This document shows, piece after piece, positions 368 to 19,000 of a stretch of DNA of 37,637 nucleotides. A program made the translations under genes and the position numbers. The DNA lies in the NCBI GenBank assembly GCA_020429915.1, contig JAGQKV010000017.1:1-37637 (forward strand), read 5' to 3'. Origin of the DNA: Candidatus Omnitrophota bacterium. Lineage in GTDB: Bacteria; Omnitrophota; Gorgyraeia; Zapsychrales; Zapsychraceae. The notes beneath the pieces are model-generated. The model ran no database searches and was not told the DNA's origin. It saw only the letters and a list, made by a program, of their open reading frames with translations. Numbering within the stretch: position 1 is the stretch's first letter; every line of letters begins with the position of its first letter.

Positions 368-1273
368 TTATTGAATAAGACGTAAAATGTTGTTGCCATT
401 TATGTTAGCAACGTCATTCTCGGAAAGTCCGGCTTGACGCGCCGCCTCAAGAGCACCCCGGGGGCTGGGATTGGCGGGAAAATCACTCCCAAAAAGGATT
501 TGTTCGGGGCCCGCCACCTCCAAACAACACATTAATGAGGCGACCGAGGACGATCCGCTCATGTCGTAAAAAAGGTTCTGAAACCATCCGCTGGGCGGTT
601 TAGCCAGCTCCTTGACATAGTTACGCTTGCGCAGCATGTGATACGTGGAGTCGAAGCGGTCTTTGACGATCGGCAACACCCCGCCGTAGTGCGGAAAAAT
701 AAACTGAATATCAGGATAACGCAAAAAGATGTCGGACATCATCAATTTCCCCAGACACATCGTCACGTCCATCACATACTCCAGCACCGGCGAAAGCAGC
801 GGGTCCTCCACGCGTTCGTGTCCGATGGGCTTGATGATCTGGGCGTGAACATGCACGGGAAACTTGTTGTCGGAGGCAAACTCCCAAACCGGATCGAAGA
901 ATTTGTCGTCGAGATATGTCCCGTCGTAACTCGAAGCCAGACTCAAAACGGTTAAACCCAAATCCTGCACCCGGAGCAAAGCCTCCTCAAGGCCCTTGGA
1001 ATCACCGTAAGGAATAATGCCCGCCCCGACAAACCGATCGGGATGCCCACCGACCATCTTGGCAATCGCGGGATTGTAAACCTCGACGAGGTTGTTCCAA
1101 CCTTTCATGTTGATGTGCGCGTCGCTGGTGGGATATAGCAGAACGGCCCGGTCGATATGGTGTTCGTCCATCATCTGAAGCTGACGGTCCACATCCGACC
1201 AACCCTGCTTAAAAAAGGCGGTATGTTCGGCCACTTCCGGTGGCATGTAATGACTGTGCGCGTCGATAATCAC
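368..1273 (-). CDS. Amidohydrolase-family protein (ACMSD-type, possible aromatic-acid decarboxylase)
   Basis: A 301-aa amidohydrolase of the COG2159/ACMSD type. Metal-ligand motifs are visible: DAHSH with His6 and His8, His141/His143 in FPVHVH, His195 in FPHYGG, and Asp264 in FGSDFPAN. Members of this family include non-oxidative decarboxylases of aromatic acids (2-amino-3-carboxymuconate semialdehyde, gamma-resorcylate, 6-methylsalicylate) as well as hydrolases. As the last protein gene of a polyketide locus, a tailoring decarboxylase is attractive, but the substrate is inferred. The start is GTG at 1273, with AAGGA ten bases upstream. A GC-rich hairpin (1302-1320) lies in the 79-nt gap to the previous gene, so its expression may be partly uncoupled. 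Confidence 0.8.
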   Translation of the reverse strand: MIIDAHSHYMPPEVAEHTAFFKQGWSDVDRQLQMMDEHHIDRAVLLYPTSDAHINMKGWNNLVEVYNPAIAKMVGGHPDRFVGAGIIPYGDSKGLEEALLRVQDLGLTVLSLASSYDGTYLDDKFFDPVWEFASDNKFPVHVHAQIIKPIGHERVEDPLLSPVLEYVMDVTMCLGKLMMSDIFLRYPDIQFIFPHYGGVLPIVKDRFDSTYHMLRKRNYVKELAKPPSGWFQNLFYDMSGSSSVASLMCCLEVAGPEQILFGSDFPANPSPRGALEAARQAGLSENDVANINGNNILRLIQ

Positions 1274-1352: not shown

Positions 1353-1586
1353 TTAGAGCATTTTGTTATCCTTAAGAGTTTTTTCCACTTCGTCCAGGCA
1401 CTTGCGCAAATCGGCAAGCAAATGGATGTTGATGGAAACTCCCTTTGCCGTCGGTACCATTTCTTCGGTCCCCTGCGTCATCGTCCACGTCCGGATGTCG
1501 ATCAGATCGTTGCCTTTGAATTCCCGGATACCGACACGGATTTCCTGGAACTTATTCTTTTTGAATGTTGCGATGGTTTTGTCCAT
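1353..1586 (-). CDS. PC4/YdbC-like single-stranded DNA-binding protein
   Basis: A 77-aa protein matching the bacterial form of the transcriptional coactivator p15 (PC4) domain: an EIRVGIREFKGNDLIDIRTW strand block, a Pro-Thr-x-Lys-Gly segment (VPTAKGVSI) and a C-terminal amphipathic helix (LADLRKCLDEVEKTL). PC4 domains are small Whirly-like folds that bind single-stranded DNA or RNA as dimers. The start is fixed by a perfect anti-16S match, AGGAGGTGAT, five bases upstream of the ATG. This is the strongest ribosome binding site seen in the locus, so it may be made in larger amounts than its neighbours. It lies between an SDR gene and an amidohydrolase gene; a regulatory role in the cluster is a guess. 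Confidence 0.75.
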   Translation of the reverse strand: MDKTIATFKKNKFQEIRVGIREFKGNDLIDIRTWTMTQGTEEMVPTAKGVSINIHLLADLRKCLDEVEKTLKDNKML

Positions 1587-1627: not shown

Positions 1628-1709
1628 GTAATTGGTGATTAGGGATTGGTGATTTGAAAGCTCGTTAAGGGCAAACTGTACGCATCCCCAATCCCTAATC
1701 ACCAATTAC
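1628..1709. repeat. 22-bp perfect inverted repeat built of heptamers
   Basis: The arms at 1628-1649 and 1688-1709 are perfect 22-bp reverse complements around a 38-nt loop. Each arm is a degenerate 7-mer array; read on one strand the units are AATCACC, AATCCCT, AATCACC, AATTACT. The right arm runs into the end of the SDR gene and contains its stop codon (1706-1708). No poly-T follows. A long transcript hairpin between the SDR and PC4-like genes, or a relic of a small mobile repeat, would both fit. Confidence 0.8.
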
Positions 1710-2536
1710 TTCTTAGTTTCCAATTTCCGCCTCTTCATTTCCTCAATATTTTCCCCGCAGTGCGGGCAATCGGCCATCTGCTGTTTATAGTCGATGACCG
1801 GCTTGGTCCAGGGGGTTTGCTGGTTGATAACGGCCAACTCCAGGGGACAACAGTTAGCCGGGACGCTGAGGGCGAACATCACCATGTCCACGACAGCCTG
1901 CGGATCCATCAGCCGGTCGCGCTGCTGGGCCGTGATGTTCTCCAGGGAGTCTGTTAGGTCCGAAGCAACCACTCCGGGGAGAATCGACGTCACCTTGATA
2001 TTATGATCGCGCAGCTCCCAGAACAACCCTTTCAAGAACGCGCGCAATCCCACCTTCAGCGAGCTGTATGTCAGAAACCCCCGCGGGATCGGATCGACCA
2101 GCGTCGAACCGGAAACCGAATTGATGATGGCCCCCTGCTTGCGTTCGATCATCTCGTTGATGACCAGGCGGATCAAACGGACGTAGCCCAGGTAGTTGGT
2201 GTGCACCAACCGCTCAAAGTCATCAAACGGCTGCTTTTCGAAGGGAAACTGGCTCGTTACGCCGGCATTGTTAATCAAGATATCGATGGGGCCGAGCTGG
2301 GCCCGGGTCGTGTCTACCAGATTCTGGAGATCCTCCATCTTGCCGACGTCGCACGCCACACCCAATATTTTTCCGGCCGACTGTGCCTGAAGCTTGTTAA
2401 CGGTATCGTCCAGGGTTGCCTGCGTACGCGCCGCCAGGACAACATTAGCCCCTTCCGCCGCCAGGCGTTCGGCGATGGCCTTGCCGATACCTTTCGATGC
2501 TCCGGTAATGACTGCATTTTTTCCTTTAATATCCAT
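1706..2536 (-). CDS. SDR-family oxidoreductase (ketoreductase candidate)
   Basis: A 276-aa classical short-chain dehydrogenase/reductase. The Rossmann motif TGASKGIG is at 11-18, NNAG at 88-91, a Ser in INSVSGS (139-143) and the catalytic pair Tyr156 and Lys160 (YSSLK). Arg37 after the second strand (LAARTQ) favours NADPH. The C-terminal ~25 residues are an unusual Cys/Lys-rich tail (CPHCG then EEMKRRK) with one CxxC pair only. In a type II PKS locus an SDR of this kind would serve as ketoreductase on the nascent poly-beta-ketone or on a tailored product; that role is inferred from context. Its stop lies inside the inverted repeat at 1688-1709. Confidence 0.85.
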   Translation of the reverse strand: MDIKGKNAVITGASKGIGKAIAERLAAEGANVVLAARTQATLDDTVNKLQAQSAGKILGVACDVGKMEDLQNLVDTTRAQLGPIDILINNAGVTSQFPFEKQPFDDFERLVHTNYLGYVRLIRLVINEMIERKQGAIINSVSGSTLVDPIPRGFLTYSSLKVGLRAFLKGLFWELRDHNIKVTSILPGVVASDLTDSLENITAQQRDRLMDPQAVVDMVMFALSVPANCCPLELAVINQQTPWTKPVIDYKQQMADCPHCGENIEEMKRRKLETKK

Positions 2537-2550
2537 ATCTTCCTATCCTT

Positions 2551-3354
2551 TCATTTCCCGCCAGGGTCTTTACGGTAAAAAACAAACTGTGCGAACCGGC
2601 CGACGAAACTTAATCCGTTCGCCTGCATCAGCCGGTCAAAGGCATCCGCATTGTGATACTGAAAATTTTCCTCCAGGTGCAACCCTCCGCCCTCAAAGGC
2701 ATCGCCGCTGATCAGCAACCCACCGGTTCTGACGCAGCGACTCAACCGGTTGACAACCGCGGGCAGGTCCTTGATGTGCTCGAAGCAGTCAAAACTGATC
2801 ACCGCGTCAAAAGTCTCTCCGGACAAGCCGTCGAGCGCATCGTACATCTTCACATCCAATCCGCGGCGCTGAAACCGCCACCGGGCGAAATCGGACACTT
2901 CCTTGCCGATATCGCAATAGGCGACCTGCCGGCCGGACGCCGCCAAGGCCAGACACAGATCGCCGGTCCCGCCGCCGAAATCCAGCACCTCCCGGCACCG
3001 GAACTTGTCCAGATATGGCCGCATGATACGGCATAGATATTGAGGACGCGCCTTCTCGGCATTCCACAAGGGTAGCTCATAGAGATAATACGTCGCCTCA
3101 CGATAAAAGTTTTCCACCGCCGATACCGTCAGCCGATCCTGTTGCTGGAAGATCGCGAACGTCGGTTCCTTGCGCGGCCCCATATGATGCTTTTTCCGCA
3201 CGGTTTCCAGCGGTTCACCGGTGTACTCGCTGACCTCTTTCAGCGTCTCCTGATACAAATTCAGACGCCGGCTCTCGTCTTCGGCCCATTTCTTGTATAT
3301 TTTGTTGCGCCAGGATAACATCGGGCGCATGAGCTCATACTGCCAACTCTTCAT
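2551..3354 (-). CDS. Class I SAM-dependent methyltransferase
   Basis: A 267-aa protein whose C-terminal half is a Rossmann-type methyltransferase: motif I VLDFGGGTGDLC, an acidic loop (YCDIG), DAVISFDCFEHI for motif IV and LLISGDAF. The N-terminal ~100 residues form a helical, charged extension without a domain I recognise. The start at 3354 overlaps the MFS stop in an ATGA, showing translational coupling; a longer reading frame upstream is only an antisense-like shadow over the MFS gene. In this setting it is probably an O- or C-methylating tailoring enzyme; the acceptor cannot be deduced. Confidence 0.82.
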   Translation of the reverse strand: MKSWQYELMRPMLSWRNKIYKKWAEDESRRLNLYQETLKEVSEYTGEPLETVRKKHHMGPRKEPTFAIFQQQDRLTVSAVENFYREATYYLYELPLWNAEKARPQYLCRIMRPYLDKFRCREVLDFGGGTGDLCLALAASGRQVAYCDIGKEVSDFARWRFQRRGLDVKMYDALDGLSGETFDAVISFDCFEHIKDLPAVVNRLSRCVRTGGLLISGDAFEGGGLHLEENFQYHNADAFDRLMQANGLSFVGRFAQFVFYRKDPGGK

Positions 3355-4493
3355 GAGGTTTTCATTCCTTGAGGTATTATGCGCGGAACCATCCACGACA
3401 GCAGGAAGGCCAGACATCCGAAAACAAAAAATGTCCGACCGAAGTTCAAACTTACAAAAGGTTTGCTCAGGATGAATCCCATCCCGCCGCTGATGAAACG
3501 AACCGAGGAGTTTAAGCCGGCGATCACCGGCCGGTCTTCGTCCGTAAAGTCCGTCAAGATGGTGGAAATCCCGTTGTGGCCGATCGTCCAGAACAAGGCA
3601 ATCAATCCCAGTACCGCCGCCAGCATCACGGAACCATAGGTCCCCAGCAGTGCCATAATGGACAAAGCCAATCCGGTTACACCGACCCTCAGCGTAAAAG
3701 CGCGGCCCTTCAGGTCGGACAGAAAACCGCCGCACACCTGACCGATCATCCCCATCACGACCGTGAGCACGACGAACATATTGATAGTCAACTGATCAAA
3801 ACCGTACACCTGATCCAAATACACACCGTACCACTTGTGCACGCCGTGGTACAGAAAGCTGAGACAAAAGATAAACAGGAACACGCGCAGGATCTCCGAC
3901 TTGCGGAGCGCGTGCAGGTAATCCGTGTGCCCGGCGTGGCTGCAGTCCAGCAGTCCCGACCGGTACAGCCCGAAACCGGCGGCAACAGCCACCCCCAATC
4001 CCGCCGGTATATAAAAAATCAGCCGCCACGGCATGACCCCGCCCACGATCAGGCCGAGAATGGACGCGACAAAGGCATGGCTGAAAAAGATCCCCACCAG
4101 ACGGCCGCGAATGCGTTTTTCGAAATGATCCCCGATGATGATCAACCCCATGGGAATCGCCCCGGCGGCGGTTACGCCCATGAGGATCCGGCCGCATAGC
4201 ATCGCCTCCAGACTGCCGGCCCGCGCGCAAATAAGACAGGCCAGTCCGAATAATCCCATCATGCCCACGTAGACAGTGCGGAACCGGAACCGGCTGACCA
4301 AAGGCGCGTATAGCAACGCCGCAAATCCGTAAGGCACCAGATAGTAGGGAATGATGCGCGCAACCTCGAACTTCGTGCGCATTAAGTCTTCACTGATAAC
4401 GGGAACAATGGCGGAGATGACCGCCACATTAAATGATATTGTCAGGCAGCCCAGGCAGATCAATGCATACAACCCCAGTTTTTCCCGTGTCAC
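3351..4493 (-). CDS. MFS transporter (probable product exporter)
   Basis: A 380-aa integral membrane protein with about twelve hydrophobic segments and features of the major facilitator superfamily, including a basic loop after the second helix (VSRFRFRTVYVG, motif A region) and ILMGVTAAGAIPMG. It starts with GTG at 4493 preceded by AAAGGA. The length is typical of 12-helix MFS permeases. Overlap with the methyltransferase start and its position inside the polyketide locus suggest drug/metabolite export. Uptake of a precursor cannot be excluded. Confidence 0.85.
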   Translation of the reverse strand: MTREKLGLYALICLGCLTISFNVAVISAIVPVISEDLMRTKFEVARIIPYYLVPYGFAALLYAPLVSRFRFRTVYVGMMGLFGLACLICARAGSLEAMLCGRILMGVTAAGAIPMGLIIIGDHFEKRIRGRLVGIFFSHAFVASILGLIVGGVMPWRLIFYIPAGLGVAVAAGFGLYRSGLLDCSHAGHTDYLHALRKSEILRVFLFIFCLSFLYHGVHKWYGVYLDQVYGFDQLTINMFVVLTVVMGMIGQVCGGFLSDLKGRAFTLRVGVTGLALSIMALLGTYGSVMLAAVLGLIALFWTIGHNGISTILTDFTDEDRPVIAGLNSSVRFISGGMGFILSKPFVSLNFGRTFFVFGCLAFLLSWMVPRIIPQGMKTS

Positions 4494-4536: not shown

Positions 4537-4998
4537 TTACCCTTCTTTGGCCGTCTGCGCGGCTTCCTGCTCAATCACCTTCTTGAAAATCTTAAGATTG
4601 TGCTGCGAATGCTCATTGATGAAACCGGCGATCTGTTCGCCCGTGAATTTGGTGAAACCCGGGTCCATGTCAAAGTCCTGGATCCATGTCATCAGCGTGC
4701 CGTCATCCGTTTCATGGTACAGCCAAATGATCTTCATATATTTAAAAGGAAACATCGGATCGTACCGGCTGGCGATGGCATAGCGTTGCTCGGGATGAAG
4801 CCAGCGTTTGGAGACCCACGATTTGCCGTCATTGTTTGTCAGACGAAAGGTGATTTCATTGCCTTCTCGGCTGAGGACTTCCGCGCTGACATATTCATCT
4901 CCGAAGAGTTCCGTCCAGCGTTCGATGTGGTTGGAGATTTCAAAGGTAATGTCAAAAGGGGCATTTACAAAAATAGAGTTCACCGTATGTTGCGCCAT
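4537..4998 (-). CDS. SRPBCC-fold aromatase/cyclase-like protein
   Basis: A 153-aa START/SRPBCC (Bet v1-like) protein that resembles polyketide cyclase/dehydrase family members: an N-terminal strand HTVNSIFVNAPFDITFEIS, then the IERWTELFGDEYVSAEVLSR region, strands ending in MTWIQDFDMDPG, and a long C-terminal helix. In aromatic type II PKS clusters such single-domain proteins (TcmN ARO/CYC type) fold and aromatise the polyketide. Its presence downstream of KS-alpha, KS-beta and ACP supports that role; similar folds also bind other hydrophobic ligands. A strong GGAGGA lies five bases before the ATG, and an AT-rich stretch with a candidate promoter (5092-5119) precedes the gene, so it may head a second transcription unit. 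Confidence 0.75.
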   Translation of the reverse strand: MAQHTVNSIFVNAPFDITFEISNHIERWTELFGDEYVSAEVLSREGNEITFRLTNNDGKSWVSKRWLHPEQRYAIASRYDPMFPFKYMKIIWLYHETDDGTLMTWIQDFDMDPGFTKFTGEQIAGFINEHSQHNLKIFKKVIEQEAAQTAKEG

Positions 4999-5335: not shown

Positions 5336-6148
5336 TCAGGCATTCTCATCCAGGATCGCGACCACCCGTGCCCATCCCGCGCCGGCATTTCTGACTTTGA
5401 CCGGCAGGCAGGATACGGTAAACCCGTACGGTCGGGGGATGGCCCCGAGATTACCCAGACGCTCCATATGGCAGTACTCCCGGCGGCGGCCCAGAAAATG
5501 CGAGGGCCAGATCTTGGCCTTGTCTTTGGTTTCCAGAAATTCTTTGAACATCTCGAAGCACGGCCGGTCCAGGCCGATCGTGTCGATGCCCATCATCTTG
5601 ATGCCACGATCGAGCAGATACTCCACCGCATCCGGCAGCATGCCGACATACTTATTGACGTAGTCGGGCGTCCCCAAATTCTTATCGCCGCCGGTATATA
5701 TCAGGACGATATCCAGCGGTTTCAGTTCATAAGAAATCTTCTTTAACGCCGCCTCGACGTCCCGCGCCGCAATATTCTGCGGATAAGACAGGTGCGTAAA
5801 ATCCAGCAGGACACCCGGCCCGTAACACCACTCCAGCGGAACATCCTCGATCATCTTGGCCGGCTTGCCCTCACACCGGCTTCCGTAGTGAAACGGGGCG
5901 TCGACGTGGGTCCCCATGTGGACAGAGGAGTGTACGATCTCCAGCGAAAGCATCTCCCCGTCGGGAATCTCCTCCTTGGCGGCCACCCGTTCGCCGTTGT
6001 CAAAGGCTTCCTGGCCACCGGGTCGCTTGTTCATGACCACCCAGTTGAAATGCTCCACCCCGTCGGCATGGGTAATACGGTCAATGGTGGCGTCATGGGT
6101 CTCTTCCAGGGTGTCGTCTATCGGCAGACTAAGATCTATGATGTGCAT
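5336..6148 (-). CDS. PF04199-type metal-dependent cyclase/hydrolase
   Basis: A 270-aa member of the putative cyclase family (kynurenine formamidase-like fold). The metal-binding signature HxGTHxDxPxH is intact as HMGTHVDAPFH (residues 77-87). MHIIDLSLPI at the N-terminus is typical of the family and fixes the start at 6148, preceded by GAGGA. Family members include KynB formamidases, isatin hydrolases and proteins found in polyketide antibiotic clusters. Here it directly follows the KS-alpha/KS-beta/ACP genes, so a cyclisation or hydrolytic release step is plausible. It is flanked on both sides by tiny membrane-protein genes. Confidence 0.82.
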   Translation of the reverse strand: MHIIDLSLPIDDTLEETHDATIDRITHADGVEHFNWVVMNKRPGGQEAFDNGERVAAKEEIPDGEMLSLEIVHSSVHMGTHVDAPFHYGSRCEGKPAKMIEDVPLEWCYGPGVLLDFTHLSYPQNIAARDVEAALKKISYELKPLDIVLIYTGGDKNLGTPDYVNKYVGMLPDAVEYLLDRGIKMMGIDTIGLDRPCFEMFKEFLETKDKAKIWPSHFLGRRREYCHMERLGNLGAIPRPYGFTVSCLPVKVRNAGAGWARVVAILDENA

Positions 6149-6287: not shown

Positions 6288-6524
6288 TTAGCTGGCCCCC
6301 TTGTCCGCAAGAATCCCCAGAATATCCTGGTAGGTATGCGTCTTCTTCAGTTCATTGTCGCCGATCTCGATCTGTAGATTCTTTTTCAGCCCGACGGAGA
6401 TCTCGACCATCTCGGTAGAGTCGACCTCATGGGCTTCGGCCAAAGGCCGGTCACGGATTATATCCTCCGGCTTGATATCAAGGACATCCTTCAATATTTG
6501 GTTCAGGGTTTCTTCCGCAGTCAT
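6288..6524 (-). CDS. Acyl carrier protein of the type II PKS
   Basis: A 78-aa acidic helical carrier protein. The phosphopantetheine attachment site is Ser36 in EVDSTEMVEI (the usual DSL is DST here), with a conserved spacing from the N-terminal helix (TLNQILKDVLDI) and the final helix (TYQDILGILADKG). It follows KS-beta by 54 nt and has a GGAG ribosome binding site. The order KS-alpha, KS-beta, ACP is the canonical minimal type II PKS. It would carry the growing chain; no acyltransferase gene is visible nearby, so malonyl loading must borrow the fatty-acid FabD, as is usual for such systems. Confidence 0.88.
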   Translation of the reverse strand: MTAEETLNQILKDVLDIKPEDIIRDRPLAEAHEVDSTEMVEISVGLKKNLQIEIGDNELKKTHTYQDILGILADKGAS

Positions 6525-6578
6525 AGGAAATTCTCCTCTCCCTTGTGCGTTATCGCCAATACCCGGCAGGTGACCGGG

Positions 6579-7811
6579 TCAATTCTTCTGTACGACCAGC
6601 GCGCAGTTGATGCCGCCCCGTCCGCGATTGATGATCAGCGCGTTATTGATTTCCATTTCGCGCGCCTCACCCGGACAGTAATCCAGATCGCACTCGGGGT
6701 CAGGCTCGTCGAGATTGATCGTCGGCGGGACGGTGTTGTATTGCATGGCCAATAATGTAGTAATGAGGTCTACCGCGCCGGTCGCGCCGAGCAGATTGCC
6801 GAAGACCGCCTTCGGAGCCGAACACACCAGCCGGCCGGCGTGATCACCGAAGGCCTTCTTGATGGCGAGCGTCTCGGTGACATCCCCCAACGGCGTTCCC
6901 GCACCATCAAGGCAAACATAATCGATAGCCTCGGGACGCAGTCCGGCATTGTCTAAGGCGATCCCTATCGCGCGTGCCAATTCCCCACCGTCGGACGCCG
7001 GGTCAATCCGGTCGACCGCGTCCGTGGAGGTCCCGAAGCCGGCAATGTACCCGTAAACGGGGACCCCGCGTGAAGCGACCCGCTGCATCGGTTCAAGCAC
7101 CACGATGCCCGCCCCCTCGGCGATGGCCAGACCGTCCCGGCCCTTGGCAAAGGGCTTATAGGCCGTGTGCGGCGTTTCGTTTTGCTGCGTGAGCACACCG
7201 GAAGTCTGGCAACATAGTAACGCATAAGGCGTCACCGGGGCCTCCATGCCGCCGGCCAGGATAAAATCATTCTTGCCGCGATTTATGGTCCGGGCCGCAT
7301 ACGCGATCGCCATCAGCGAACTCGCCCGGTCGGCCACGACGGTCTTGCTGTAGCCTTTAAGACCGTAGCGAATCGACACCTGCCCCTGCGGCGCCGCCGG
7401 AAACCAGGCCGAGGCCATAAAGGGACTGACGCCCTCCCGGCCTTCGATGTAGAGATCGCGCAGCTCGGTCTCACCGTACAACCATCCGCCGATCGCGTTG
7501 CCCATGAAAATACCGGCACGTTCTTTATTCTCGGACTCCAGGTCGAGTTTGGCATCCTGAATCGCCAACTCAGAGGCCACCAGCGCCATGTGTGAAAACA
7601 CATCGATCTTCTTCAGCAGGCGCGAAGACACGTTGCTGTAGGCCTCCAATTCCTTGACATGCCCCGCAATGCGCGACGTGTACTTGGACGCATCAAAGCG
7701 CTCAATTTTCTCGACGGCGGGCCGGCCCGCCTTGACGTTGGCCCAAAACTGATGCAAATCGATCCCGCTGGGGGAAACCACCCCCAGACCGGTTACGGCT
7801 ACTTTTTCCAT
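6579..7811 (-). CDS. KS-beta / chain-length-factor-like ketosynthase homologue
   Basis: A 410-aa thiolase-fold beta-ketoacyl synthase homologue in which the active site is dismantled. The nucleophile Cys is replaced by Arg162 (VVADRASS), the first His by Asp302 (CLDGAGTPLGD) and the second His by Asn339 (VFGNLLGATG), while Lys334 remains. The fold motifs GMEAPVTP and AEGAGIVVLE are intact and the length is normal, so it is not a decaying gene. This is how chain-length factors (KS-beta) look, although classical CLFs carry Gln at the Cys position. It lies 13 nt after an intact KS, so an obligate KS-alpha/KS-beta heterodimer is expected. Confidence 0.87.
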   Translation of the reverse strand: MEKVAVTGLGVVSPSGIDLHQFWANVKAGRPAVEKIERFDASKYTSRIAGHVKELEAYSNVSSRLLKKIDVFSHMALVASELAIQDAKLDLESENKERAGIFMGNAIGGWLYGETELRDLYIEGREGVSPFMASAWFPAAPQGQVSIRYGLKGYSKTVVADRASSLMAIAYAARTINRGKNDFILAGGMEAPVTPYALLCCQTSGVLTQQNETPHTAYKPFAKGRDGLAIAEGAGIVVLEPMQRVASRGVPVYGYIAGFGTSTDAVDRIDPASDGGELARAIGIALDNAGLRPEAIDYVCLDGAGTPLGDVTETLAIKKAFGDHAGRLVCSAPKAVFGNLLGATGAVDLITTLLAMQYNTVPPTINLDEPDPECDLDYCPGEAREMEINNALIINRGRGGINCALVVQKN

Positions 7812-7824
7812 AAGATATCCCGTG

Positions 7825-9090
7825 TCAATTGTCGTTAAACCGGCGCAATACCATCGCCGAATGAATTCCCGAAAACCCGCTGGAGGTCTTGAGCATGCAC
7901 TGGACCCGCCGTTCGCGTGCCTTGTTGGGAACGTAGTCCAGGTCGCATTGCGGGTCCGCCTCCTCCTGATTGATCGTCGGCGGCAGCATGTTCCGCTCGA
8001 AAATCAATGACCCCACAGCCAGTTCGATCCCGTTGGCACCGGCCAGCGGATGGCCGATCATCGACTTCAGGGAACTGATCGGTACCTTATAGGCATGATC
8101 ACCGAAAACCATTTTATAGGCATTGGTTTCAAAGACGTCGTTCTGCCGCGTCGATGATCCGTGGGCATTGATGTAATCGATCTCATCCGGAAGCACCGCG
8201 GCGTCTTCCAAAGCCAGCCGGATGCAAGCGGCTTTGGCATCGCCCTCCGGCGGTAGATCGGTCATATGATACGCGTTGCACGTGGTGCCGAAGCCGATAA
8301 TCTCACAGTAAATCTTGGCTCCGCGCCGACGCGCGTGCTCCAACTCCTCGACGATGAGTATCCCGGCCCCTTCCGAAATCACAAAGCCGTTGCGCTTGGC
8401 GTCAAACGGCCGGGAGGCCTTGGCGGGGTCGTCGTTTAACGTCGACAAGACATTGACGGTGTCGAAGGCCCCGAAGGTGATCGGAGTAATCGGCGCTTCC
8501 GACGCGCCCGTGATCATGATATCCACGTCGCCGTCCTGGATGGCTTCGTAGGAAAAACCCACAGAATCGGTCCCCGCCGTACATCCTGTCGAGATGGTGT
8601 TGCACACGCCATGCAGACCGTATTTCGCCGAAATCTCGCTCGACGGCGTATTGAACATCGCTGCGTCGTACAAATCCGGCCGGACCAGCGTCGGGTCGAT
8701 CGGCGCCCGTCCGCTGTTCGTCACCAGGGCAAATTCTTCTTCCAGATACTTGGTTCCGCAAATCGCGTTAGCCAGCGACACGCCCATGCGCGCCCTGTTC
8801 ACGCCTTTCAGATCAATCGACGAGTCCTCCAGGGCCATGCGCGCCGCCACCATCGCGAACTGTACAAAGCGGTCCATACGCACCGCCTCATCCCGCGTCA
8901 ATCCCAACCGGACCGGATCGAAGTCGTGGACCTGGGCGGCAATCTTGGTATTGAACATCGATACGTCAAACTCGGTCACCCGGCGGATGGCCGACCGGCC
9001 GTTGATCATACCGTCCCAGCAGGCCTCCTTGCCGATGCCGTTCGGGGCAATAACCCCCACTCCCGTTACGACTACTCTGCGTTTACTCAT
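7825..9090 (-). CDS. KS-alpha: active beta-ketoacyl synthase
   Basis: A 421-aa FabF-like ketosynthase with all catalytic residues: Cys170 in STGCTAG, His310 in INAHGSST, Lys342 and His347 in LKSMIGHPLAG. It would catalyse decarboxylative Claisen condensation of malonyl-ACP with the growing chain. The start has AAGGA six bases upstream. Its neighbour is a KS homologue lacking the nucleophile, then an ACP, which sets the pair apart from housekeeping FabF and identifies a type II PKS or a specialised fatty acid synthase. Compared with canonical FabF the nucleophile context is TGC-TAG rather than TAC-ASS. Confidence 0.9.
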   Translation of the reverse strand: MSKRRVVVTGVGVIAPNGIGKEACWDGMINGRSAIRRVTEFDVSMFNTKIAAQVHDFDPVRLGLTRDEAVRMDRFVQFAMVAARMALEDSSIDLKGVNRARMGVSLANAICGTKYLEEEFALVTNSGRAPIDPTLVRPDLYDAAMFNTPSSEISAKYGLHGVCNTISTGCTAGTDSVGFSYEAIQDGDVDIMITGASEAPITPITFGAFDTVNVLSTLNDDPAKASRPFDAKRNGFVISEGAGILIVEELEHARRRGAKIYCEIIGFGTTCNAYHMTDLPPEGDAKAACIRLALEDAAVLPDEIDYINAHGSSTRQNDVFETNAYKMVFGDHAYKVPISSLKSMIGHPLAGANGIELAVGSLIFERNMLPPTINQEEADPQCDLDYVPNKARERRVQCMLKTSSGFSGIHSAMVLRRFNDN

Positions 9091-9099: not shown

Positions 9100-10128
9100 T
9101 TATTGTGATGTTGGCTGACTGGGAGCCCCGGTCAGCTCGAAGGCTTCTTTAACTTGTCCGACGGAGAAATATCTCCCGCTGCTCTCCACTTCGTGAACCA
9201 TGCGGACCACCTGTCCGTTAAACGGCGCGCTCTGTTGCATTCCTTTAGCCAATGCGACCACTTCGCCGTTAATAAAATCAATCTCGGAGGTCCGGCCCCG
9301 CATGATGCTTTGCAGGACCGATCCGTAAAGCGGCTCGGCACTGAGTCCGGTCAGCGTCTTGTTCATGATCCCTGCCGCCTGTTCCTCAGGCATATTGATC
9401 AGACCGTATATCCGGTCTGTGGGAAATTGCGGTAAAGAAGTCAGCTCGATATTCGCCTTGTTAACGACTCCCACGCCCTCCTTGAGCAGCCGGATGCTCA
9501 GGCGGCAGAAATCCAGGTCGGCAAATGTCTCCTGCATCGACTTGCCGATCAGCGCCGGTAGGCAATTATTGAAATTGACGAACAACTTCAAATACTTCAT
9601 TCCCATAATATTATCCGATGATACCACAGGCAGCGCATCCGTCCGTAAAGTCTCAAGGATCCGGTGAAACGCCGGATCGAGCGGGGTGTACGGTTTTCCG
9701 ATAATCCAGTCGCCGGGAAAATTGTAGACGACCTCGCCGGGCGTGGTGTAGGTCGCCCCGAACATGACGATACTGCTCAGCTGCCTGCCGGGATCATAAT
9801 GGCTACTGAGAATATTGTCGGCCTGCACCCCGTTTTGCGTCGTCAGGACATAACAGTCCTCCAGATAATCCACGTTTGCCTGGTAGGCGCGCTCCAGGTC
9901 CTGGGTCTTGGTCGCGAAAATAACCAGATCATACGCGGCATCGAGCGCCGTTGCCGCGCGCAGATGCACCACTTCATCACCGCCCATGCCGCGGATCGTC
10001 AAACCCCGGGCATTGATCGCCTCCACCTGCTCGGGCCGTCCGATCAGCAACACGTCGCTGTCGCTTTTACTCAGATAGGCGGCGACGGTGGCTCCGATGG
10101 CCCCGGCGCCGATAACGGCAATACGCAT
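9100..10128 (-). CDS. Ketopantoate reductase-like (ApbA/PanE family) oxidoreductase
   Basis: A 342-aa protein with the N-terminal NADP-binding motif GAGAIGATVAAYLS (residues 7-20), FATKTQDLE and TTQNGVQ segments, and the helical C-terminal domain of the ApbA/PanE family. The family reduces 2-dehydropantoate in CoA synthesis, but many homologues work on other alpha-keto acids or keto compounds. Position between the PCP_red-like protein and KS-alpha, with 9-nt gaps on both sides, suggests that it reduces a pathway intermediate. A pantothenate role, supplying the ACP cofactor, is a fair alternative. Confidence 0.78.
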   Translation of the reverse strand: MRIAVIGAGAIGATVAAYLSKSDSDVLLIGRPEQVEAINARGLTIRGMGGDEVVHLRAATALDAAYDLVIFATKTQDLERAYQANVDYLEDCYVLTTQNGVQADNILSSHYDPGRQLSSIVMFGATYTTPGEVVYNFPGDWIIGKPYTPLDPAFHRILETLRTDALPVVSSDNIMGMKYLKLFVNFNNCLPALIGKSMQETFADLDFCRLSIRLLKEGVGVVNKANIELTSLPQFPTDRIYGLINMPEEQAAGIMNKTLTGLSAEPLYGSVLQSIMRGRTSEIDFINGEVVALAKGMQQSAPFNGQVVRMVHEVESSGRYFSVGQVKEAFELTGAPSQPTSQ

Positions 10129-10137
10129 ACGCTTCCC

Positions 10138-10419
10138 TCAATCCTTGGGTTCGTACGGTTTATAATCGAATCCGACACTTTCGAACAGCCGGATCATCAA
10201 GCTGTAAAAGGTCATCGGCACCTCCGTGAAAAAGGCGCGGATGATGTCTTCCTCTTCAATCGCGGCCGCCCCGCGGGCCTGGGCGTTTTGCGCGGCCTTT
10301 TTATCGACGACTTGCTTGGCGATCTCGCGGTGGAACAACGGGATCTTGGCAATCATCTCGTCGTATTTGGCCTTGGCCTGGGGATTCCAGGCCACCGGGG
10401 GAGATTGCGTTTCACTCAT
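10138..10419 (-). CDS. Small PCP_red-domain protein (protochlorophyllide reductase-like helical domain)
   Basis: A 93-aa protein matching by eye the PCP_red domain (PF08369) found at the C-terminus of the light-independent protochlorophyllide reductase subunit BchB/ChlB and as small stand-alone proteins: W-x-P-x-A start (WNPQAKAKYDEM), IPLFHREIAKQVVDKKA, then AAIEEEDIIRAFF. The C-terminal extension (FESVGFDYKPYEPKD) is extra. No other chlorophyll genes are present. It lies 9 nt after a BchE-like radical SAM gene and 9 nt before a reductase gene, so it may be a partner or substrate-binding subunit of one of these. The domain assignment is from motif similarity only. Confidence 0.6.
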   Translation of the reverse strand: MSETQSPPVAWNPQAKAKYDEMIAKIPLFHREIAKQVVDKKAAQNAQARGAAAIEEEDIIRAFFTEVPMTFYSLMIRLFESVGFDYKPYEPKD

Positions 10420-10428
10420 GCGGGCCTC

Positions 10429-11898
10429 CTACGCCTTGGCCGCCACGCGGGAATTGGCCTCCCACTTGGAGATATTGTTCATAAAGTCCTTCACGCACAG
10501 CTTGACCTTCATGTCGTAGTCCGAAGACATGATGCGGTGAATGCGTTCCGGTTTCGAATAGTATTCCCGCATGCACCATGCTCCCAGGCGTCCGACCTCT
10601 TCGATAGTCAGATGATCCGTCGGGATGACCGGATGCTGAAAATCCCATAGCTTCAGATCGATGGTGTCGGGGTCAAACCATCCCTTTTTGATACCGTATT
10701 TCCAGTCCGGCGAATTCGGTACCGGCGTCAGATAGTCCAGCGCGAAAATGTCCGGGTCGATTTCATCGGCCACCCGCAGACGTTCCTTAATCCTTGCCTC
10801 GTCGTCGTCGCGCAGGCCGATCAGCACCGTCCCGACCGAACCGATATTATTCTCCCGCAAAATACGGATCGTGTCGCTGATCTGTTCAATGGTGACCCCC
10901 TTGCCCTGCTTGGTCAGGGTCATGTCATCCTCAACCTCGACGCCGGTCAACGCCAGAAAGAGACCGGCCTTGCGCATAAGCGGCAGGATGTCCTGCTGGC
11001 TGATCCACTGATCGGCCCGTCCCAGACAGACCCAGTCGATCTTGTTGCCGCGCTTGATCTTTTCCTCGCAAAACTCGATCATCGCCTCGGTGTCGCTGTT
11101 AAAGGCGTCGTCCTGCATGACGACGGTATTGATCCCGTACTGCTTTTCCAGCACGTCCAGTTCGTCGACGATGCGTTTTCCGGTCATACCCCGCCACGAC
11201 GTAAAGTCCTGTGTCGCTGTCCGGCTATCGTAAAGGGCCCACTCATAACAGAAGTGGCACTTGCCCGGACAACCGCGGGAGGTCATCATTTCGGCGAAAG
11301 GCTTCCAATAGGTGTGGCCGACGTACTTCTCCATCGGAAACAAATCATAGGCCGGCATCGGCAGGACGTTCAGGTTGGGAATAAGATCGCGGTGCGGACC
11401 GAATACAATCGTACCGTCCTCACGGCGGGAGACCAGTCCCGGAATCTCCCGTTCATCGACTTTAGGATCATCCAGATTGTGGATCAGCTCTTCCATCGTG
11501 ATTTCCGCCTCACCGAGCATGATGTAGTCGATCGTCGGGTTCAACCGCATTTGCCGCTCCGCATCCCCGGAATACCACAGTCCGCCGGCGACCGTCCTGA
11601 CTTCGGGCATCGCCTCTTTGATAATCCGCAGTCCCTCATTGAAGTACCAAATGACCGCCGCGCCGCACGTCGAGTGCAGCAGCTCGCCGACAAAGACGAT
11701 GTCCGGCTTGATTTCGCGGACCTTCGCCAGCATACCGTCCCAATCCAATTCCAAAGCGCGGCAGTCGAGCGCCTCGACATCGGCGGTTTTCTTTTCACGT
11801 AAAAAAGCAGCCAGCTGCGCATGCATCTGATTCGCTGCCAAATGGTGCCCATGTGAGTCCCACGCCTTCAGCGGCGGTGTTAAAAATAATGCCTTCAT
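10429..11898 (-). CDS. B12-binding-type radical SAM enzyme (BchE-like)
   Basis: A 489-aa protein with an N-terminal cobalamin-binding-type Rossmann domain (about 1-145, ending IDYIMLGEAEITMEELI) and a radical SAM barrel starting near 205 with the [4Fe-4S] motif CPGKCHFC (Cys210, Cys214, Cys217). The canonical DxHxxG cobalamin ligand is not seen at the usual place, as in BchE-type enzymes. Relatives include the anaerobic Mg-protoporphyrin ester cyclase and hopanoid or other methylases. It would produce 5'-deoxyadenosine per turnover or methylate an unactivated carbon. In a polyketide locus it is a candidate for anaerobic C-H functionalisation. It is preceded by GGGGAG and ends 9 nt from the PCP_red-like gene. 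Confidence 0.85.
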   Translation of the reverse strand: MKALFLTPPLKAWDSHGHHLAANQMHAQLAAFLREKKTADVEALDCRALELDWDGMLAKVREIKPDIVFVGELLHSTCGAAVIWYFNEGLRIIKEAMPEVRTVAGGLWYSGDAERQMRLNPTIDYIMLGEAEITMEELIHNLDDPKVDEREIPGLVSRREDGTIVFGPHRDLIPNLNVLPMPAYDLFPMEKYVGHTYWKPFAEMMTSRGCPGKCHFCYEWALYDSRTATQDFTSWRGMTGKRIVDELDVLEKQYGINTVVMQDDAFNSDTEAMIEFCEEKIKRGNKIDWVCLGRADQWISQQDILPLMRKAGLFLALTGVEVEDDMTLTKQGKGVTIEQISDTIRILRENNIGSVGTVLIGLRDDDEARIKERLRVADEIDPDIFALDYLTPVPNSPDWKYGIKKGWFDPDTIDLKLWDFQHPVIPTDHLTIEEVGRLGAWCMREYYSKPERIHRIMSSDYDMKVKLCVKDFMNNISKWEANSRVAAKA

Positions 11899-11899
11899 A

Positions 11900-12013: not shown

Positions 12014-12043
12014 ATATATCCTGGCCTTGCCGAAATCAGACAG

Positions 12044-13471
12044 TCAAAACCATGATGCCGCCAGCGGCATCCCTCCCGGTGTTTTGTCAATACACACATG
12101 TTTGGCCTGAACGTATTCTTTTAATCCCTCCGTGCCGAGTTCGCATCCGAATCCACTCTGCTTCATCCCGCCGAAGGGTGCCTCGTTAAAAAAGTTGCCG
12201 TACGTGTTGATCCAGACGGTGCCGACCTTTAACGCGCGGGCGACTCGCGACGCCTTTTGTTCATCCTGTGTCCACACGCAACCGGCCAGACCGTAACGGG
12301 AATCGTTCGCCATAGCCACCGCCTCCTCTTCCGTCCGAAAGCGGATGACCGACAGGACCGGGCCGAAACATTCTTCGCGGGCCACGGCCATGTCATTCGT
12401 GACATCGGTCAGGATCGTCGGCTCCAGGAAATACCCGTCACCGTCAGGCGCGCGCCCGCCGCAGGCCACTGTTGCACCTTCCTCGCGGGCCCGGGCGATG
12501 GTCTGCAGCAGCCGGTCACGCTGCTCCCGGCTGGTCAACGGTCCGAACTCCGTCGTAGCGTCGGCCGGGTTACCGATCTTCAATGTCCGGGCGCGGTCTA
12601 CCAGACGTTTGACAAATTCGTCGTGCAGCTCGTCCTGCACAAACAGGCGTGATCCCGCCGTGCACATCTGACCTTGATTGATAAAGATCGCCGACAGCGC
12701 CCCGCCGAGCGCCGCCTCCAACCGACAGTCGGCAAACACGATATTCGGTGACTTGCCTCCCAGTTCGAGGACCACTTTCTTGGCCTTCTTCGCGGCCTCG
12801 GCCATCACCTTCTTGCCGGTCTCGGTGCCGCCGGTGAAACTGACCATGTCCACCTTGGAACAACGGACCAGCTTGGCCGCGACCTCGTCGCTGGTGGTGG
12901 TGATGACATTGACCACCCCCTCCGGAAGTCCGGTGGCCGGCAACAATTCTCCCAGCCGATGAATGGTCGCCGCGGCCAGCGGTGAAGGCTTGAGGATCAC
13001 CGTGTTCCCGGTGATGATCGCCGGTGCGATCTTCCAGGCGGCATAAATCAGCGGATAATTGTAGGCGCAAATGGCCGTAATCACACCGCGCGGTTCGTAA
13101 ACGGTGTGGCTGGCCACCGGGGCGGCCACGGCATTTTCCATATCATCCATGCTGACGGAACTAAAGTACTCAAAGCAGTCCGCCGCCGTCGGTACATCGA
13201 TAAAGTTGGCGTGCTTGATCGTCTTGCCGACATCCGCGACTTCCAAATCCGCCAGCTCCTTGGCGTGTTCGCGAATCAATTGGGCGATCTTCTTCAGATA
13301 AATCCCGCGTTCAGCGTAACTCATACCCGGCCACAAACCTTCATCAAAGGCCCGGCGGGCCCGGGCGATCACGGCAACGGCATCATCCATATTGGCATCC
13401 GGTAACGTGCGGAAGGCCTGTCCGGTGGCCGGATTGATTGCGTCGAAGGTCTGGCCGGTCGTCTGCGTCAT
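12044..13471 (-). CDS. NAD(P)-dependent aldehyde dehydrogenase
   Basis: A 475-aa ALDH-superfamily enzyme, normal in length. Catalytic Cys270 (NQGQMCTAGSR), Glu236 (VLELGGKSPN), Asn138 (CAYNYP) and EECFGPVLSV are all present. The non-acylating (hydrolytic) class fits best: aldehyde to free acid. The ATG at 13471 follows the aldolase stop by one base (TAG-T-ATG), so the two are coupled. The obvious reading is that it oxidises the aldehyde released by that aldolase; the resulting acid could then be activated by the acyl ligase at the head of the cluster. A longer upstream reading frame is ignored because it overlaps the aldolase end. Confidence 0.88.
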   Translation of the reverse strand: MTQTTGQTFDAINPATGQAFRTLPDANMDDAVAVIARARRAFDEGLWPGMSYAERGIYLKKIAQLIREHAKELADLEVADVGKTIKHANFIDVPTAADCFEYFSSVSMDDMENAVAAPVASHTVYEPRGVITAICAYNYPLIYAAWKIAPAIITGNTVILKPSPLAAATIHRLGELLPATGLPEGVVNVITTTSDEVAAKLVRCSKVDMVSFTGGTETGKKVMAEAAKKAKKVVLELGGKSPNIVFADCRLEAALGGALSAIFINQGQMCTAGSRLFVQDELHDEFVKRLVDRARTLKIGNPADATTEFGPLTSREQRDRLLQTIARAREEGATVACGGRAPDGDGYFLEPTILTDVTNDMAVAREECFGPVLSVIRFRTEEEAVAMANDSRYGLAGCVWTQDEQKASRVARALKVGTVWINTYGNFFNEAPFGGMKQSGFGCELGTEGLKEYVQAKHVCIDKTPGGMPLAASWF

Positions 13472-13472
13472 A

Positions 13473-14477
13473 CTATTCCACCGGTACCTGTGCCCAGATT
13501 TCAAAGACCCGTGAACACGGGGCGTACCATTTAGAGATTTTCGCAAAGTCGCCGTCCAACTTCATTTTCTTTTGCGTGGTTGCGACGAACGGATCGAGCT
13601 CGCGGTTAAATACCTGACGCCATATCTTCTCGGAAGCGGACACCACAAACTCGGCTTGCGCATTCCCGCGCACCTGCTTGATCCTGCCCTGTTCAAATTC
13701 AAACGAGTACGCCTGACCGGTATCATCGAGCAAAACGGCCAGATCAAAAGTCATGTTTGTTTCCTTACCGAGGACCCCCATCTTTTCATCCGCATTCACA
13801 TGTTTGACGATCTCGTCCATCTGTTCTTGCGAAAACAGTTTGTATTTGCGGCCGGCGGCTGGCGCATCCGTTGAGATCTCCGCGGTCATCGCCCCGGCGT
13901 CACCGCCATCGTACAACCGGCTCAAGGCGTCGATATGGGCCGCCTCTTCCAGGGCCTGGATCAGCAAAAAACAGTCGAAGTGTGTCCGGCCCATCGCCAC
14001 AACGCCGTGATTGCGCAGCGCGACAATATTGTTGGTGCGCAGCGCCTCAATCACCGGCGCGGCGTCGGTAACGGCCGGTGTATTTTGCGGAACGCCGGTG
14101 ACATCACCCAAATAAATACGGGATTCAAAGATACGCGGACGAAGCGTTTCGTTGTGAAGAAAATACGCGTTGGTATAAGTCGTGTGCGTATGGATCACCG
14201 CGGTGACCTCCGGAAAATTCCGGTAGATTGCCGTGTGCAGCAGTTTTTCCGTGGATACACGGCCCGCATCGATCAGCTCACCGTCCACACGCAGCCGCAG
14301 CAGTTGTCCGGGAGTGAGCATCCCCAGACACGTCCCGGTCGCCGTTAACAGCAGACTGTCGTCGTCCAGACGGGCGCTGATGTTGCCGTTGAGTCCGCCG
14401 GCCAGGTTCTTGTCCCACAGCAACTTGCCGGCGGCGATGATATCCTGTTTCACTTGTTCCAAACGTTCCACGCTCAT
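13473..14477 (-). CDS. Class II aldolase/adducin-domain protein fused to an SCP2 lipid-binding domain
   Basis: A 334-aa two-domain protein. Residues 1 to ~205 are a class II (zinc) aldolase with metal ligands His96 and His98 (IHTHT) and His157 (LRNHGVV) and a Glu77 general-base candidate (STEKLL). Residues ~225-334 look like an SCP2 sterol-carrier domain (FDLAVLLDDTG, YSFEFEQGRIKQV, ending KKMKLDGDFAKISKW). Aldolases of this family split sugar 1-phosphates such as 5-deoxyribulose-1-P or methylthioribulose-1-P into DHAP and an aldehyde. The SCP2 fusion suggests a hydrophobic aldehyde or a lipid-bound product. Its start overlaps the previous stop (ATGA). Confidence 0.8.
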   Translation of the reverse strand: MSVERLEQVKQDIIAAGKLLWDKNLAGGLNGNISARLDDDSLLLTATGTCLGMLTPGQLLRLRVDGELIDAGRVSTEKLLHTAIYRNFPEVTAVIHTHTTYTNAYFLHNETLRPRIFESRIYLGDVTGVPQNTPAVTDAAPVIEALRTNNIVALRNHGVVAMGRTHFDCFLLIQALEEAAHIDALSRLYDGGDAGAMTAEISTDAPAAGRKYKLFSQEQMDEIVKHVNADEKMGVLGKETNMTFDLAVLLDDTGQAYSFEFEQGRIKQVRGNAQAEFVVSASEKIWRQVFNRELDPFVATTQKKMKLDGDFAKISKWYAPCSRVFEIWAQVPVE

Positions 14478-15004
14478 TTTTCCTTCACGATTTCGGAAAT
14501 GTACTTACGGGGGACCCACTCGGCAAGCGGCACATAACCTTTGACGTTGCGCGGGGCGACTTTCACACCGTTGAAATACAGGATCTCTTTGTCTTTACCC
14601 AACAGAGCCAGTCGCTGGCTGCTCGGAAACAACCGCACCGGAACACTGTGGCGCTTACCCAATACACCCAGGATCAAAGCGCCGATCTGGCACAACGCCC
14701 CGTCCTCGTCGGCCACCTGATAGGAAATCCAGACTTCCTTCACTAAATTCTTGTAGAACAGAAATCCGGCCATATTGTCGGCAATCAGCGTCGGTTTAAC
14801 CTTGCGTTTAATAAGTTCCCGGCAGGAAAACTGCGCCGATTCCAGCGAAGGCCGGCCTTCCAAGACAAAGACATCACGGACACTTTTTCTGACAATATCG
14901 TCAAAGGTCTTCGGACTGAAGATTCCGTGCAGCACCGTCACTGACTCGGTGAATTCATCGAGAATCCCGTTCGTATCTTTCTCGTTTTCAGCTGCCTTTC
15001 CCAT
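14474..15004 (-). CDS. Truncated eIF2B/MtnA-like protein lacking the catalytic residues
   Basis: A 176-aa protein aligned over the C-terminal Rossmann-like half of MtnA/eIF-2B-alpha proteins: EGRPSLESAQFSCREL corresponds to the ETRP...GARLTSWEL block of its neighbour, then IADNMAGF, then SYQVADEDGALCQIGA where the catalytic Asp and the NGDxANKxGT motif should be. The N-terminal helical domain and catalytic Cys are absent. Start at ATG 15004, with AAGGTGAG seven bases upstream, is preferred to a TTG two codons earlier. Located 2 nt after the full-length homologue and overlapping the aldolase start, it may be a non-catalytic subunit of a hetero-oligomer. Confidence 0.72.
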   Translation of the reverse strand: MGKAAENEKDTNGILDEFTESVTVLHGIFSPKTFDDIVRKSVRDVFVLEGRPSLESAQFSCRELIKRKVKPTLIADNMAGFLFYKNLVKEVWISYQVADEDGALCQIGALILGVLGKRHSVPVRLFPSSQRLALLGKDKEILYFNGVKVAPRNVKGYVPLAEWVPRKYISEIVKEK

Positions 15005-15006
15005 AC

Positions 15007-15996: not shown

Positions 15997-16000
15997 AGAC

Positions 16001-16771: not shown

Positions 16772-16803
16772 GCTTTCTCCTTTCGGCGTTGGGCCGCGCG
16801 GCT

Positions 16804-18469: not shown

Positions 18470-19000
18470 CTAGAGCTGCTCGGGGCCGTCCAGGATGCCG
18501 ACCAATTTCTGGACCGATTTGAGTTCGGCGGCGACCAGATCGAGGTTATGTTCGAGGATGATGTGCAGGTGTTTTTTGGCGGGATCCGTCTCGGCGCGCA
18601 CGCCCTCAATCTGCCGGATGATTTTCTTCAGAAACAGCATCCGCCCGCGCAACTGCCTCCGCGCGATGGCCCGATCCACATACTGCAGGAAATATAACGA
18701 AAGATCGATATCAAAATACGGACGCTTGATACTCAAAAAGCTCTCGGTGATCAGATGCTCAAAGATCTCCTCCCCTTTCGGGGTTAGGCTGTACACATGC
18801 TTTTCGGGATAATTGCCGGACCGGTCCTGCTCTTTGTTGATCAGGCCCAACTGTTCCATTTTCTTAAGCGGGTAATATATCGATTTGATACTGAGCCCAA
18901 CGAAGCGTGAAAAGTCCTCTTCGATCAGGCGCTTGATTTCATAACCATGCTTCGGCCCGTCTTTGAGCAGCCCCAAGAAAAGGAGTTCGTTCTCGATCAT
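18470..19000 (-). CDS. PadR-family transcriptional regulator
   Basis: A 176-aa PadR protein. The winged-helix domain covers ~1-85 (LLKDGPKHGYEIKRLIEEDF, SIKSIYYPLKKMEQLGLI, YSLTPKGEEIF) and the C-terminal half is a helical dimerisation/effector domain (LYFLQYVDRAIARRQLRGR onward). PadR proteins repress genes for phenolic acid or drug responses and often bind aromatic ligands. It lies 8 nt after the pyruvate kinase gene and just upstream of the promoter-palindrome that heads the polyketide locus, so local repression relieved by a pathway product or precursor is likely. Confidence 0.87.
   Translation of the reverse strand: MIENELLFLGLLKDGPKHGYEIKRLIEEDFSRFVGLSIKSIYYPLKKMEQLGLINKEQDRSGNYPEKHVYSLTPKGEEIFEHLITESFLSIKRPYFDIDLSLYFLQYVDRAIARRQLRGRMLFLKKIIRQIEGVRAETDPAKKHLHIILEHNLDLVAAELKSVQKLVGILDGPEQL

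Follow-up and report, generated by a model that had tools for sequence, protein, structure and literature searches.

Type II polyketide synthase (PKS) chemistry is best known from Actinobacteria, where it takes the form of optional clusters. The presence of genes resembling a minimal type II PKS on a contig of a Candidatus Omnitrophota bacterium (GenBank assembly GCA_020429915.1, contig JAGQKV010000017.1) raises the question of whether a true aromatic polyketide pathway is encoded there, or whether a pair of fatty acid ketosynthases (KS) has been modified for another product. The window analyzed here comprises the first 37,637 bases of that contig, and its source genome (G000) measures 3.35 Mb and is 94% complete. 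A first-pass annotation had placed a KS-alpha, a KS-beta or chain-length factor (CLF), and an acyl carrier protein (ACP) between positions 6,288 and 9,090; all three were confirmed there on the minus strand by Pfam matches, the ketoacyl synthase match being 4.7e-46 for KS-alpha and 2.7e-45 for KS-beta. As judged from sequence, a KS-alpha with catalytic residues, a dead KS-beta of the CLF lineage, a Ser-bearing ACP, and an aromatase/cyclase of the TcmN/WhiE type are united in one conserved same-strand cassette, and we consider it probable that this cassette specifies a chromosomal pathway for type II aromatic polyketides which is ancestral within much of Omnitrophota. The host had been suspected to be a PVC-group bacterium outside Actinobacteria, and the named nearest matches are indeed Candidatus Omnitrophota, a phylum compared with other PVC species in the available part of PMC10066038.

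The assignment is founded on active-site residues and phylogeny. In a 66-protein alignment, the Cys-His-His triad is retained by KS-alpha in 18 of 18 Omnitrophota rows, as had been read from the window alone, while in each of the 19 KS-beta rows the equivalent sites are occupied by Arg or Lys, Asp, and Asn, in agreement with the earlier description of this protein as lacking the triad. An AWF motif, and Asp where the triad has its first His, are shared by Omnitrophota KS-beta and the five actinobacterial CLF rows. The active-site motif of KS-alpha, TGCTAG, is changed to TGCTAA in one of 36 sequences (L075), and the DS motif of the ACP, which contains the attachment Ser, is present in 37 of 37; two genes of the phosphopantetheinyl transferase family lie elsewhere in the source genome. 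The tree built from these 66 rows (19 KS-beta, 18 KS-alpha, 13 other Omnitrophota KS, 5 CLFs, 5 actinobacterial KS, the Photorhabdus KS AntD, and 5 FabF/FabB) unites the 19 Omnitrophota KS-beta proteins with the five actinobacterial CLFs (100/100) and the 18 KS-alpha proteins with the five actinobacterial KS and AntD (100/98), both groups being separate from the FabF/FabB rows and from the 13 other Omnitrophota KS. Approximately unbiased (AU) tests reject the placement of KS-beta (p 0.0001) and of KS-alpha (p 0.017) among FabF-like rows, such that the phylogenetic check proposed in the first-pass annotation came out in its favor, and the grouping within fatty acid KS which had been named as its refutation was found neither in the tree nor in these tests. 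A local duplication, in which Omnitrophota KS-alpha and KS-beta would form a single clade, was also considered and was rejected (AU p 1e-44).

Several observations weigh against this assignment. The best NCBIfam models for both KS proteins are those of FabF: KS-alpha passes the FabF subfamily PRK07314 (455.7 bits against a cut-off of 387), although both proteins fall below the cut-off of 493.75 for the FabF equivalog TIGR03150 (471.9 bits for KS-alpha and 386.1 for KS-beta). Among solved structures, KS-alpha is closest to the actinorhodin KS (399 bits, above FabF and AntD at 374 each), whereas the best matches of KS-beta are FabF (309 bits), with the actinorhodin CLF at 239. The best NCBIfam models for the ACP are fatty acid ACPs, well under cut-off, and no malonyltransferase is present in the window cassette. 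The tree is itself sparse in FabF (five FabF/FabB rows) and in non-actinobacterial type II proteins (one KS), and contains several long rows as well as rows of odd composition. In the available part of a 2023 catalogue of KS-CLF pairs (PMC10132072), NaPDoS2 classed 263 of 565 non-actinobacterial CLF matches as fatty acid synthase. Despite the FabF-like scores in generic models, KS-alpha, KS-beta, and the ACP are by their sequences a true type II PKS, because the tree, the AU tests, the active-site residues, and the WhiE/TcmN-type SRPBCC protein described below point the same way.

A second, different KS set is present in G000 at C10:858-2075 and C33:68551-69732 (L059 and L003), both near contig ends, and also in L096, L097, and L098, the two clades adjoining in L096; one clade lacks the catalytic Cys (GF) and the His residues, and the other keeps them. 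None of the four KS matches found in G000 belongs to the FabF-like clade represented in its relatives (L091 to L095), and a FabF-like KS may be missing from the 94% complete assembly.

Conservation of the locus was found to be extensive. Orthologs of KS-beta with 68 to 78% identity are carried by 34 of 38 near relatives (the source genome being counted, and one ortholog being split across contigs), and orthologs at E <= 1e-100 occur in 99 of 286 sampled genomes of the phylum, a distribution by which chance is excluded. Of these 99 PKS genomes, 30 belong to the 37 genomes of the same order, 68 lie elsewhere in the class, and 1 comes from another class. Gene order was compared in 37 loci with flanks, many of which are truncated stretches, or in 38 loci when the window is included. 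The order KS-alpha, KS-beta, ACP, PF04199, SRPBCC, and short-chain dehydrogenase (SDR) is exact in 31 of the 37, bearing out the expectation that related genomes would keep it; of the other six, four (L045, L054, L069, and L073) are short and lie at contig ends, and L052 has no SDR gene in the available stretch. In L050 (G108, a one-contig genome), the genes from KS-beta through the amidohydrolase are present, with no KS-alpha before KS-beta. KS-alpha is the core gene immediately preceding KS-beta in 35 of 37 loci, and the ACP gene, found in 36, follows KS-beta directly in 28, a radical S-adenosylmethionine (SAM) gene intervening in others. Core genes lie on the KS-beta strand wherever they were found, with the exception of the ligase gene (13 of 14). 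Distances among KS-alpha proteins track those among KS-beta proteins (rho 0.915), as do, to a lesser degree, those of eleven other genes (rho 0.39 to 0.85), and in no case did any of 300 permutations reach as high a value.

Beyond this sample, the best 80 of 185 relatives in a contig search bear the titles Omnitrophota/Omnitrophica or Candidatus Aceula, apart from two named only "bacterium" and two Planctomycetales. The last two, L116 (SBBO01000006.1) and L167 (SBBM01000006.1), encode KS-beta proteins of 73% and 63% identity and are perhaps misnamed bins. In a plasmid search, the best identity among the matches listed (40 of 1286 records) was 40.2%, these matches being FabF and Streptomyces CLFs. 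The locus is read, from these sequence comparisons, as ancient and mainly vertically inherited, with losses (7 of the 37 genomes of the order give no match).

The genes under discussion all lie on the minus strand of the window (Table 1) and extend well beyond those listed in the first-pass annotation, which had missed the upstream half of the cassette (9100 to 18327).

Table 1. Genes of the PKS locus and its surroundings in the window
Feature	Position	Strand	Size and evidence
Amidohydrolase (PF04909), nearest to aromatic-acid decarboxylases	368..1273	-	Pfam; solved-structure matches; 29/37 loci
PC4-like small DNA-binding protein	1353..1586	-	92% identity to L061 copy, whose PC4 match is 3.7e-13; 17/38 loci (window included)
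SDR, candidate ketoreductase	1706..2536	-	Pfam; 32/37 loci
SAM methyltransferase, start approximate	about 2551..3360	-	Pfam; outside conserved cassette
Major facilitator superfamily (MFS) transporter, probable exporter	3351..4493	-	Pfam; 26/37 loci
SRPBCC aromatase/cyclase, TcmN/WhiE type	4537..4998	-	Best solved matches WhiE, TcmN; WxSxR
PF04199 cyclase/metal-dependent hydrolase-like protein	5336..6148	-	Pfam; motif HxG[TS]HxDxxxH
ACP	6288..6524	-	78 aa; Pfam PP-binding 1.3e-5; DS motif
KS-beta/CLF, Cys, His, His replaced by Arg, Asp, Asn	6579..7811	-	410 aa; Pfam, alignment, tree, AU test
KS-alpha, Cys-His-His triad intact	7825..9090	-	421 aa; Pfam, solved-structure matches, tree
Ketopantoate reductase-like (ApbA/PanE) protein	9100..10128	-	Pfam; passes NCBIfam subfamily TIGR00745; 34/37 loci
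DUF2621/PCP_red-like helical protein	10138..10419	-	93 aa; Pfam; model pLDDT 91; 33/37 loci
B12-binding radical-SAM protein, nearest NCBIfam model BchE (below cut-off)	10429..11898	-	Pfam; CxxxCxxC; 31/37 loci
Aldehyde dehydrogenase, annotated start may be too early	12044..13546	-	Pfam; 19/37 loci
Class II aldolase with C-terminal SCP2 lipid-binding domain	13473..14477	-	Pfam; 24/37 loci
Two IF-2B-fold proteins	14474..15996	-	Pfam; 15007-15996 MtnA-like isomerase (passes TIGR00524; 24/37 loci), 14474-15010 shorter paralogue
Nucleoside phosphorylase family protein	16001..16771	-	Pfam; 25/37 loci
AMP-forming acyl-CoA ligase	16804..18327	-	Pfam; 14/37 loci
PadR-family regulator	18470..19000	-	Pfam; 4/38 loci (window included)

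Downstream of the ACP gene, every neighbor named in the first-pass annotation exists, but PF04199 precedes SRPBCC in transcription order, and the methyltransferase gene, with a single weak match among the 37 loci (in L054), lies outside the conserved cassette. The strong solved relatives of the SRPBCC protein are all WhiE and TcmN aromatase/cyclases (2e-27 to 3e-25), and its WxSxR motif is kept in 35 of 35 sequences; the PF04199 motif is likewise maintained throughout the alignment of the loci. The amidohydrolase most closely matches 5-carboxyvanillate and gamma-resorcylate decarboxylases among solved structures. In L047, L057, and L068, a TolC/MFP/RND efflux set (named by reading) precedes the cassette, and a gene resembling that for the alpha subunit of acetyl-CoA carboxylase (also named by reading) lies upstream in L053, L054, and L069.

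On this basis, the KS-alpha/KS-beta heterodimer is presumed to lengthen an ACP-bound poly-beta-ketone by malonyl units, using a malonyltransferase which would be borrowed from fatty acid synthesis, to a chain length which would be set by KS-beta. The SRPBCC protein is predicted to fold the chain and aromatize its first ring, after which the PF04199 protein may close another ring or act as a hydrolase. Keto groups would be reduced by the SDR, and perhaps also by the PanE-like protein, an aromatic carboxyl group would be removed by the amidohydrolase, and the product would be exported by the MFS protein.

The CxxxCxxC motif of the radical-SAM protein is present in 31 of 32 sequences, the exception being truncated by a contig end. 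Two observations count against a firm role for this protein within the proposed pathway: its score against the nearest NCBIfam model, BchE (TIGR02026), is 177.8 bits and does not reach the cut-off of 481.35, and its distances track those of KS-beta least of all (rho 0.39), while its position varies. The role of the radical-SAM protein is accordingly a guess, given this lowest rho, its variable place, and the distance from the BchE cut-off, and the first two of these features suggest that the gene may move. BchE itself works without oxygen. The predicted model of the DUF2621-like protein, with a predicted local distance difference test (pLDDT) score as in Table 1, consists of four helices; a fold search with this model returned nothing at E <= 0.001, the best two matches being asr4154 and a PCP_red domain at E 0.36. 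No flavin adenine dinucleotide (FAD) monooxygenase was present among the 20 window-cassette genes scanned by Pfam, and no oxygenase occurred among 25 of the 38 Pfam families listed for 56 extra open reading frames in the loci of relatives. In deeper-branching loci, a 199-amino-acid protein with two tandem TIGR04076 domains and no Pfam family is encoded between PanE and KS-alpha (L057:7272-7871 and 15 other loci, with a PanE fusion in L075:4006-5616); it does not occur in the window cassette.

Folds of a phosphorylase, an MtnA-like isomerase, and a class II aldolase are present and PKS-linked, although only the subfamily model TIGR00524 was passed and no NCBIfam equivalog cut-off was reached. 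Together they constitute parts of a putative dihydroxyacetone phosphate (DHAP) shunt or 5'-deoxynucleoside salvage set. According to the available part of PMC10986504, the DHAP shunt converts 5'-deoxyadenosine to DHAP and acetaldehyde, and such a reading is attractive here because the genes are linked to a radical-SAM gene. More speculatively, an oxygen-free oxygenation or methylation might be the task of the BchE-like B12-radical-SAM protein, possibly assisted by its PCP_red-like neighbor, and the 5'-deoxyadenosine released by the former might be recycled by the phosphorylase, isomerase, aldolase, and dehydrogenase. The broader proposal that the ancestral pathway was re-equipped for oxygen-free chemistry, in which the BchE-like enzyme and its PCP_red-like partner stand in for the oxygen-requiring tailoring oxygenases of actinomycete type II PKSs, a dedicated DHAP shunt encoded in the cassette clears 5'-deoxyadenosine, and the product is a conserved cell constituent or signal and not an optional antibiotic, is one that we advance only tentatively.

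The same genes might alternatively serve biosynthesis, with a 5'-deoxynucleoside being converted by the phosphorylase, isomerase, aldolase, aldehyde dehydrogenase, and ligase into an unusual starter unit, in place of the disposal of a by-product. The formation of fluoroacetate from fluoro-deoxyadenosine offers a precedent for this logic, with which the gene set, one continuous run up to the acyl-CoA ligase, is consistent, and most of these genes are PKS-linked in many loci. We nevertheless regard a starter-unit role as unlikely, as the ligase occurs in 14 of 37 loci only, no exact equivalog cut-off is reached by the set, and a DHAP shunt for radical-SAM by-products (PMC10986504, available part) is the simpler explanation.

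The respiratory gene content of the host bears upon a further alternative, in which the polyketide is not secreted but carries electrons, as a redox-active quinone or another conserved constituent of the membrane. The source genome encodes a MenD that exceeds the cut-off of its model, along with two oxidase subunits of the COX1 type, in Men and caa3-like operons as read, the operon genes other than UbiA, MenD, and COX1 having been named by reading and not by model; its UbiA-family matches include, by the reading of their neighborhoods, a CtaB-like one within the oxidase operon and a MenA-like one within the Men operon. Since it carries menaquinone and cytochrome oxidase genes, the source genome is by gene content not an obligate anaerobe, and the earlier description of its lineage as anaerobic is not supported for it. 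Across the phylum, MenD over cut-off was found in 19 of 99 PKS genomes versus 2 of 187 others (249 of 270 genomes with matches below the curated cut-off were excluded and taken to contain other enzymes), MqnA in 0 of 99 versus 61 of 187, and COX1 in 14 of 99 versus 43 of 187 (1 of 58 genomes, G175, which lacks the PKS, being excluded as below cut-off). No COX1 match was thus obtained in 85 of the 99 PKS genomes, cytochrome bd not having been tested. The non-overlap of MqnA with the PKS probably reflects clade structure, and as it follows clades it is weak evidence.

Room for the quinone idea is left by the 80 of 99 PKS genomes with neither MenD over cut-off nor MqnA, and the deep conservation of the locus would suit it, as would the prenyltransferases without chorismate lyase and the type III PKS-made polyketide quinones of Actinobacteria reported in the available parts of PMC10066038 and PMC9927152, respectively. 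General quinone substitution is, however, unlikely, because 13 of the 14 COX1-bearing PKS genomes (the exception being G002) possess MenD; the source genome itself reads as carrying a Men operon, 79 of the 99 PKS genomes lack MenD, MqnA, and COX1 altogether (bd oxidase again not tested), the MFS gene recurs in 26 of 37 loci, and no prenyltransferase recurs in the cassette loci. We therefore judge an electron-carrier role to be improbable.

In aryl polyene and ladderane clusters, dehydratases or an ammonia lyase accompany the KS pair; no such family was found in the Pfam scan of 20 window genes, aryl polyene and ladderane cluster models not having been run. That the two KS proteins are duplicated FabF enzymes of a modified fatty acid, aryl polyene, or ladderane-type system, yielding an acyl or polyene chain, would accord with their generic model scores, with the solved structures closest to KS-beta, and with the ladderane-type clusters reported in Omnitrophota in the available part of PMC9902471, but is very improbable given the tree and AU tests, the loss of all three catalytic residues from KS-beta, the TcmN/WhiE-type aromatase, the lack of the families just named, and the existence of another, different KS pair in the source genome.

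As a type II aromatic PKS, the locus resembles actinomycete systems (actinorhodin and those of the whiE/tcm type) in its KS-alpha, KS-beta, and ACP order, its catalytic KS-alpha, its dead KS-beta (AWF motif, and Asp in place of the first His), and its TcmN/WhiE-type aromatase/cyclase, and a Streptomyces plasmid locus has the same order. Of the actinomycete order and spacing claimed previously, the order stands, but the spacing differs: 13 bases separate KS-alpha and KS-beta in the window, whereas these genes overlap by 4 bases in three Streptomyces loci. A FAD monooxygenase gene lies one gene upstream of KS-alpha in two of those three and nearby in the third, in contrast to the window cassette, where none was seen. 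The Omnitrophota cassette has additional genes for B12-radical SAM, PCP_red-like, PanE-like, decarboxylase-like, and nucleoside-salvage functions and, unlike its actinomycete counterparts, is mainly vertical across the phylum. AntD, of the Photorhabdus anthraquinone PKS, is a non-actinobacterial type II KS and the outside row adjoining Omnitrophota KS-alpha (98/93), its branch being long and its placement unsure in a tree without AntE. The coelulatin cluster (PMC9714029, available part) likewise employs a radical-SAM enzyme to tailor a type II aromatic polyketide; according to the title of that paper the reaction is a HemN-like methylation, whereas the Omnitrophota enzyme is B12-binding and nearest to BchE.

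KS-CLF pairs are credited to 14 phyla, Candidatus Omnitrophica being one, in the available part of the 2023 catalogue (PMC10132072), which also describes a poorly explored non-actinobacterial KS-CLF clade; its one mention of Omnitrophica gives neither gene content nor conservation. The main texts of PMC10066038 and PMC8542988, both on Omnitrophota, mention neither polyketide nor ketosynthase; no PKS is shown for OP3 bins with antiSMASH 2.0 in the available part of PMC5383146, and neither "type II polyketide" nor "T2PKS" is mentioned in that of PMC9902471. No description of the locus was found among the papers listed in searches of the open-licence PubMed Central literature. Its presence in the phylum is hence already on a published list, while its gene content, conservation, and possible oxygen-independent tailoring appear undescribed in that literature.

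Much of a deep-branching uncultured phylum, 85 of whose 99 PKS genomes give no COX1 match, has retained a minimal PKS with an aromatase, next to which stands cofactor chemistry that might proceed without oxygen. The locus represents an independent sample of KS/CLF evolution, could yield aromatic chemistry not yet described, and provides a direct test case of whether B12-radical-SAM enzymes can replace oxygenases in polyketide tailoring.

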